NCBI RefSeq assembly: GCF_003712195.1
Contig: NZ_RDSD01000008.1
Coordinates: forward strand, 62,001 to 126,000
DNA: 64,000 bases
Direction: 5' to 3'
Source: Proteiniphilum sp. X52
GTDB taxonomy: Bacteria > Bacteroidota > Bacteroidia > Bacteroidales > Dysgonomonadaceae
The stretch's first letter is position 1; each line of letters begins with the position of its first letter. A program made the translations under genes and the position numbers. The notes beneath the pieces were generated by a model. It was not told where the DNA came from and did not search any database. It saw only the letters and a list, made by a program, of their open reading frames with translations. Positions 33,258-33,495 of this stretch are shown one piece after another.

Positions 33258-33495
33258 TTAATTAGAACTTAGAACTTAGAACTTAGAACTTAGAACTTAG
33301 AACTGGGAACTTAGAACTGGGAACTTGGAACTGGGAACTTGGAACTGGGAACTTGGAACTGGGAACTGGGAACTTGGAACTGGGAACTTGGAACTGAGAA
33401 CTTAGAACTTAGAATTTAGAACTTGGAACTTAGAATTTAGAACTGGGAACTTGGAACTGAGAGCTTGGAACTAAGAACTGGGAAGAAGTGAAGAA
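33258..33495. repeat. heptamer repeat array after smpB (GAACTTA/GAACTGG type)
   Basis: Thirty-two consecutive 7-bp units from 33258 to 33481 with no register change, mainly GAACTTA, GAACTTG and GAACTGG, then two GAAGAAG-like units. Begins at the first base after the smpB stop. No dyad symmetry or spacers, so not CRISPR. Confidence 0.9.

Follow-up and report, generated by a model that had tools for sequence, protein, structure and literature searches.

The window analysed here is a stretch of 64,000 nucleotides from an anaerobic Proteiniphilum strain (X52), whose genome (G000 below) is available as 4.43 Mb in 96 contigs; it corresponds to positions 62001-126000 of contig C92. The features discussed are collected in Table 1. 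The stop codon of smpB is TGA (33255-33257), and the very next base opens the phase of a tandem array of 7-bp units. The leading heptad and the 31 units that follow it make 32 x 7 = 224 bp (33258-33481) without a phase break, so that the strict 7-bp phase described in the sequence-only reading is borne out. Tandem Repeats Finder reports 31.4 copies at period 7 and 10.2 copies at period 21, with 0% indels.

Table 1. Genes, heptamer arrays and related features in the window.
Feature	Position	Strand	Evidence or remark
Short degenerate AATTACY (= GTAATTR) array, weak	8715..8776	-	Similar array in P. acetatigenes orthologue
smpB	32805..33257	+	Pfam SmpB, E 2.4e-56; ORF list; stop codon abuts array
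Leading heptad TTAATTA	33258..33264	+	In array phase; P. acetatigenes counterpart TTAATAA
31-unit GAACT-like heptamer array	33265..33481	+	Unit reading; Tandem Repeats Finder
Purine-rich edge module GAAGAAGTGAAGAAGGTGAGAAGTGGAGAAGCGG	33482..33515	+	P. acetatigenes copy with one difference
Remnant, 5' end of Gate-domain (PF07670) membrane-protein gene	33504..33561	+	P. acetatigenes comparison; Pfam
metH, next gene downstream	33688..37386	+	Pfam domains; start from own gene call
Sister array, GAAGAAT family	38448..38496	+	Overlaps stop codon of gene ending at 38464
Sister array, GAACTNR family	38501..38626	-	Convergent with preceding GAAGAAT array
Sister array, GAACTNR family	47933..48083	+	49-bp higher-order period
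Sister array, GAAGAAT family	48085..48162	-	Convergent with preceding GAACTNR array
Sister array, AAGAATG then AATTAAA units	61815..61886	+	Array finder; Tandem Repeats Finder

The 31 units comprise nine GAACTTA, nine GAACTGG, seven GAACTTG, two GAACTGA, two GAATTTA, one GAGCTTG and one GAACTAA. Base changes had been placed mostly at unit positions 5-7, which requires correction: position 5 is invariant, and the variable positions are 6 (T 19, G 11, A 1) and 7 (G 17, A 14). Position 4 has two changes and position 3 has one, giving three changes in the 155 bases of positions 1-5. Past 33481, other purine-rich heptads (GAAGAAG TGAAGAA ...) continue for a short run.

An origin of the smpB array by chance is excluded. 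At a lag of 7, 191 of the window's overlapping 42-base stretches match at 36 or more positions, and lags of 7, 14, 21 and 28 each give between 109 and 260 such stretches; among lags 3 to 30, those that are not multiples of 7 give none. With the threshold unchanged, third-order Markov versions of three stretches (807 kb, one version per stretch) yielded no arrays, whatever the period.

The best named relative, judged by SmpB (97%), is P. acetatigenes DSM 18083 (G021, also G061). When the 200 bases around the smpB stop codon were read by eye in 15 close relatives, heptads were found in this one species, as the run TTAATAA GAACTTA GAAATAA GAACTCA GAAGAAG .... From the stop codon to a shared AAGCGG, P. 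acetatigenes has 62 bp and G000 has 258 bp, a difference of 28 x 7. Since there are a few heptads in P. acetatigenes and none in the 14 other relatives, the array appears to be recent and to have grown in whole units. In L032 (the genome G007, also G062) and in Petrimonas (L034), the smpB stop codon runs into the start codon of the next gene, suggesting that the ancestral spacer was minimal or absent. P. acetatigenes has a complete Gate-domain (PF07670) gene between smpB and metH, of which about 0.84 kb is gone in G000 beside the array, with the junction near 33561; the gap between smpB and metH is 430 bp in G000 and 947-1131 bp in L031-L045 and L049. In three distant Bacteroidales (L078, L093, L104), short runs resembling heptads but built from different words (ACTAG- and GAGCTAC-like) lie in the smpB-metH spacer, and these are perhaps independent births.

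Spacers with arrays differ from ordinary spacers in how far they have changed between the two species. We compared 193 G000 spacers having an orthologue in a P. acetatigenes contig, 13 of which carry period-7 arrays in G000. None of the 13 has the same length as its orthologue and 10 are off by more than 20 bp, compared to 72 and 58 respectively of the 180 spacers without arrays. The length difference of the whole spacer is a multiple of 7 in only one of the 12 array spacers besides smpB, because the remaining spacer DNA changes too; edge-to-edge measurement of the array itself was made for the smpB stretch alone. The repeated word can also differ, as at C14:331400, where the same orthologous spacer holds GAACTTA in G000 and AATTACT in P. 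acetatigenes. Among five GAACTNR-array spacers, the P. acetatigenes orthologue contains one to three GAACT/AGTTC words in three cases and none in two, and in a sixth pair (L213/L215) a short degenerate run corresponds to a long array.

Arrays were then surveyed in 711 kb of G000 (about 17%), 497 kb of P. acetatigenes (about 10%) and 400 kb of G014 (about 9%). Period 7 is the top period in each of these surveyed parts (31, 26 and 28 arrays respectively), followed by period 8 in G000 and P. acetatigenes (13 and 15 arrays, and 4 in G014), with no other single period between 4 and 13 exceeding five arrays per genome. The sequence-only reading would have conceded a local accident had relatives shown non-repetitive, alignable sequence at the same place and had the period not been 7 elsewhere in the genome; this refutation fails, given that period 7 is the commonest in the surveyed part of G000. 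Period 7 does not lead in every sample, however: across 80 smpB loci taken from relatives (782 kb), it is outranked by period 22 (15 arrays, against 14). Separately, a near-perfect array of about 32 copies of the 8-bp unit TGATTTAA lies in G014 at C1, approximately 1725669-1725926 (L193).

Motif families were counted as overlapping matches to a 4-unit pattern. In G000, the GAACTNN pattern gives 142+153 = 295 matches, and its reversed control none. In the order G000, G014, G021, G007, the counts are 295, 0, 7 and 0 for GAACTNN, 223, 15, 11 and 1 for GAAGART, 65, 47, 19 and 0 for GTAATTR, and 11, 56, 49 and 68 for ATTYAAR. Reversed controls in the four genomes gave no matches except for 1 in G021 (GAACTNN), 4 in G007 (GAAGART) and 17 in G000 (ATTYAAR), the last because the reversed pattern TTARAAY, when repeated, also reads GAACTTA arrays. 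Thus the prevailing families differ by sister species, sometimes within one orthologous spacer. Elsewhere in the genus, 3 of 33 other genomes searched have 4, 8 and 9 GAACTNN matches; GAAGART, GTAATTR and ATTYAAR have two matches at most each in 35 of 39 genomes; across the order, GAAGART occurs in 2 of 148 genomes, G000 among them. One genome of the same order but another family (G057) has 97 matches to the reversed GAACT control, which means that it carries a separate TCAAGNN family of heptamer arrays.

The location of arrays relative to genes was assessed using our own gene calls, on which coding shares and spacer classes rest. Coding sequence makes up 4% and 8% of the bases in period-7 arrays in two G000 contigs and 16% in P. 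acetatigenes, compared to 87% and 84% of all bases in the two G000 contigs (84-87% overall). In two genomes, period-7 arrays were found in 47/748 tandem, 1/95 convergent and 1/94 divergent spacers (47/748 versus 2/189, p = 0.0017), and a count of seven motif families in three genomes gave 66/1000, 3/131 and 4/132 respectively (p = 0.016). The median array starts 9.5 bp past the upstream stop codon in G000 and 33 bp past it in P. acetatigenes.

In tandem spacers, GAAGART is mainly in sense orientation (22 versus 4 antisense, p 0.0005), as is GTAATTR (17 versus 3, p 0.003), and GAACTNR is mainly antisense (26 versus 10 sense, p 0.011); these orientation and polarity patterns are post hoc, the orientations of the seven families having been picked after inspection, and p values are uncorrected. 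On the same post hoc basis, polarity relative to the gene border is shared by 21/22 arrays for GTAATTR, 10/11 for ATTYAAR and 22/27 for GAAGART, and is weak for GAACTNR (22/33, p 0.08). A strict orientation rule was rejected, as GAACTNR follows neither a sense nor a border rule (22 to 11 at borders, 5 to 7 at stop codons). In tandem spacers with arrays, purines drop from left to right for either gene direction (p 0.004 and 0.019, also post hoc); in spacers without arrays this gradient is absent or slightly opposite.

The surveyed parts supplied 31 GAACT array pieces, with 442 units in all, for unit tables. The 332 interior units with an exact GAACT end in GA (88), TA (84), TG (75), GG (65), AA (17), TT (2) or CA (1), so that five unit types cover 329 of them. 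Units resemble each other more than in shuffled arrays at lags of 1, 2 and 4 units, and just slightly more at a lag of 3, and their order is consistent with units being duplicated locally, singly or a few at a time. Words common to different arrays also exceed those expected from shuffled order, but the excess is just as large when the unit order is reversed: the numbers shared in the same and reversed order are 562/559, 130/132, 29/32 and 5/5 for words of 3, 4, 5 and 6 units. As reversed order is as frequent as same order, nothing points to blocks of units having been copied from array to array, and this idea was dropped.

Phase breaks occur 6 times in 340 GAACT steps and twice in 118 GAAGA steps. 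In ordinary orthologous spacers there are 0.155 indels for each substitution, a figure based on 98 of the 180 non-array spacers, the rest having been dropped for length, length difference or divergence. With this calibration, which is rough because duplicated units have substitutions in common, the sampled GAACT arrays have 6 phase breaks compared to 11.75 expected (P = 0.05), and the smpB array has no indels compared to 0.65 expected, with P(0) = 0.52. An indel-free smpB array therefore needs no selection, and unit-perfect spacing by itself is no evidence of selection. It had been proposed that the tight spacing reflects either selection on period or copying in whole units: copying is supported by the 28 x 7 difference and by the likeness at lags 1, 2 and 4, while selection is not needed.

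We conclude that the smpB array is probably a non-coding spacer array which grew in place by slippage-type addition of whole units, and which is tolerated mainly between genes of the same direction. To judge from the sequence comparison, a short degenerate heptad run would have been present between smpB and the next gene before the split from P. acetatigenes, and would have been lengthened in the G000 lineage as 7-bp units, one or several at a time, were duplicated again and again. The likeliest cause is that strands slipped and mispaired, or exchanged unequally, while DNA was being replicated or repaired. Loops of 1-3 bases are efficiently corrected by mismatch repair and longer ones less so (as argued in the accessible part of PMC4060949), and 7-base loops would be poorly handled, such that these events would persist. 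The same process would operate at many spacers, the repertoire of motifs varying by sister species. Selection would act mainly by purging arrays from coding and promoter DNA, which would explain why they occur mostly between same-direction genes and often near a stop codon. Slippage growth does not account readily for the expansion of one motif at many G000 sites while ATTYAAR is low there (11, versus 49-68 in sisters), which a general rise in slippage would not predict, nor for the non-random polarity; and the near confinement of variation to positions 6 and 7 argues against independent neutral drift, which would vary all positions. A different reading would be a trans-acting factor in G000 (a polymerase, repair enzyme or binding protein) that selectively extends GAACTNR and GAAGART heptads. 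This is very unlikely, as is the growth from gene borders toward the spacer middle on both sides that forms part of the same idea, although the border polarity of several families and a convergent purine gradient would both follow if 3' ends grew toward a break. If true, a single word would be amplified at dozens of sites in one species, and other words in its sisters.

The flanks of GAACT arrays recur among loci, which indicates that some arrays sit in dispersed composites. A 26-base linker beside a GAACT array is identical at four places in G000 (L213, L216, L218, L219; around position 1501), and is found with 1-3 mismatches at three places in P. acetatigenes (L212, L215, L217) and with 3 mismatches at one place in another member of the genus (G032, L214). 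The four G000 copies continue with CTTGGYT units and then a nearly identical 35-base tail. A second linker follows a GAACT array at three further places, and at a fourth within 3 mismatches (C92:46490); GAAATTA directly precedes the first GAACT in 6 of the 31 array pieces and GAAGTGN directly follows the last in 6. It is possible, but unlikely, that arrays are the expandable inner parts of intergenic elements of about 150-250 bp which are copied whole to new spacers, moved by recombination or by an unknown mobilising enzyme, and change in length only after copying. Against this, the L213/L215 copy has orthologous flanks in both species and is thus not recent; the second linker, allowing up to 3 mismatches, has copies with no adjoining GAACT array in P. 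acetatigenes and G014; and the smpB array lacks these linkers, resembles the composites solely in its purine-rich right edge, and has no target-site duplication that could be seen by eye. REP/BIME elements, in which REP is a palindromic hairpin, are moved by transposases of the Y1 (RAYT) family. Such elements were rejected here: the Y1 profile PF01797 matches 6 of 39 genomes, but has no match in G014, G021 and G007, three of the four array-rich genomes, and one partial match in G000 (27.1 bits, profile positions 59-108 of 121), while the folding z score of the smpB spacer is only -0.63. Spread by plasmids was also rejected, as 33240-33560 had no blastn match in 72,556 plasmid records with the low-complexity filter on. 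The arrays could also serve as terminators, stabilisers or protein-binding arrays, RNA or DNA elements acting between operon genes or where transcripts end, with period and motif under selection. Such a role would be consistent with the tight positional limits on unit variation, the sense bias of GAAGART and GTAATTR and antisense bias of GAACTNR in tandem spacers, and the purine gradient in both gene directions. We consider it quite improbable, since the smpB array has the minority orientation of its family, several orthologous spacers in the sister species have other motifs or traces alone, and GAAGART, GTAATTR and ATTYAAR are nearly absent from most of the genus, as noted above. An RNA hairpin or terminator is rejected because array spacers show no excess of structure over other tandem spacers (mean z -1.09 for 42 period-7 array spacers, compared to -1.38 for 120 sampled from 382 without arrays), and a known structured RNA because Rfam has no match up to E 1 in 32700-34000. 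The difference in unit number between species, and the overlap of some arrays with stop codons, altering the last few codons, could also suggest a phase-variation (contingency) repeat whose copy number switches a neighbouring gene. This is scarcely credible for an array that no ORF of at least 60 aa crosses and whose neighbours are both housekeeping genes, smpB directly ahead of it and metH 206 bp further on; the four scanned neighbours of arrays in the window have unrelated roles.

The G000 arrays are a further case of the intergenic heptamer arrays already described, with the species-specific choice of word as the interesting remainder. They have the defining traits of such arrays, namely 7-bp units at many sites, mostly non-coding, with length and sequence varying between relatives, and are grouped with them because their layout matches the repeats described in the accessible text of PMC4692102 and PMC4679880. 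Xanthomonas and Nostoc contain heptamer repeats of GGGAATC and GGGGA(C/T)T, with 186 and 183 sites, mostly intergenic, in two Xanthomonas genomes (Rehm et al., 2015, PMC4692102). As far as that text goes, these repeats resemble ours in being heptamers with variable positions, nearer to the upstream ORF and few between divergent genes, and in lying mostly between the same genes in sister species with differing length and sequence; the Xanthomonas repeats also include convergent pairs, as at 38448-38626 and 47933-48162. In contrast to them, the GAACTNR unit has no G-tract, no four-unit preference is seen, and several motif families coexist. GGG occurs only where GAACTGG precedes G, rather than as a tract of at least three in each unit, and G-quadruplexes would not be expected from GAACTNR.

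The sequence-only reading knew of no description for this group, which is partly wrong, as TAACTGA heptamer direct repeats are reported from Beggiatoaceae, cyanobacteria and five Bacteroidetes including Paludibacter (MacGregor, 2015, PMC4679880). In the accessible text, these too have a 7-bp period, are intergenic, long in some Bacteroidetes and intermixed with other heptamers, and close relatives have shorter spacers with no obvious repeats. In the main genome of that study, most lie just before start codons in forward orientation, whereas GAACTNR arrays are mainly antisense or, in the smpB case, follow a stop codon. The motif also differs, and TAACTGA is only 1 of the 442 units in the GAACT array pieces. 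A literature search covering a minority of subscription journals turned up no account of heptamer arrays like these for Proteiniphilum. The cyanobacterial STRR are likewise tandem heptamers, but differ in phylum and probably in motif. A Calothrix STRR heptamer case is mentioned in PMC4692102. A 2007 survey of long simple sequence repeats whose units span 5-11 bp (Mrazek et al., as quoted in the accessible parts of PMC4679880 and PMC4692102) found heptanucleotides to be over-represented and the most abundant class in most genomes, and proposed polymerase slippage; as quoted, it surveyed repeat counts, whereas here growth is traced in orthologous spacers. The smpB spacer provides a dated case, with no heptads in 14 close relatives, a few in one, and 31 units in G000. 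The question of why bacterial genomes favour 7-bp tandem arrays can therefore be put to the test in this genus, in which motifs differ from one sister species to the next. As a further observation, the spacer at C92:40539-41054 (L126) in G000 has a period-14 array (GGGATACCGGACTT) which is absent from the P. acetatigenes orthologue.
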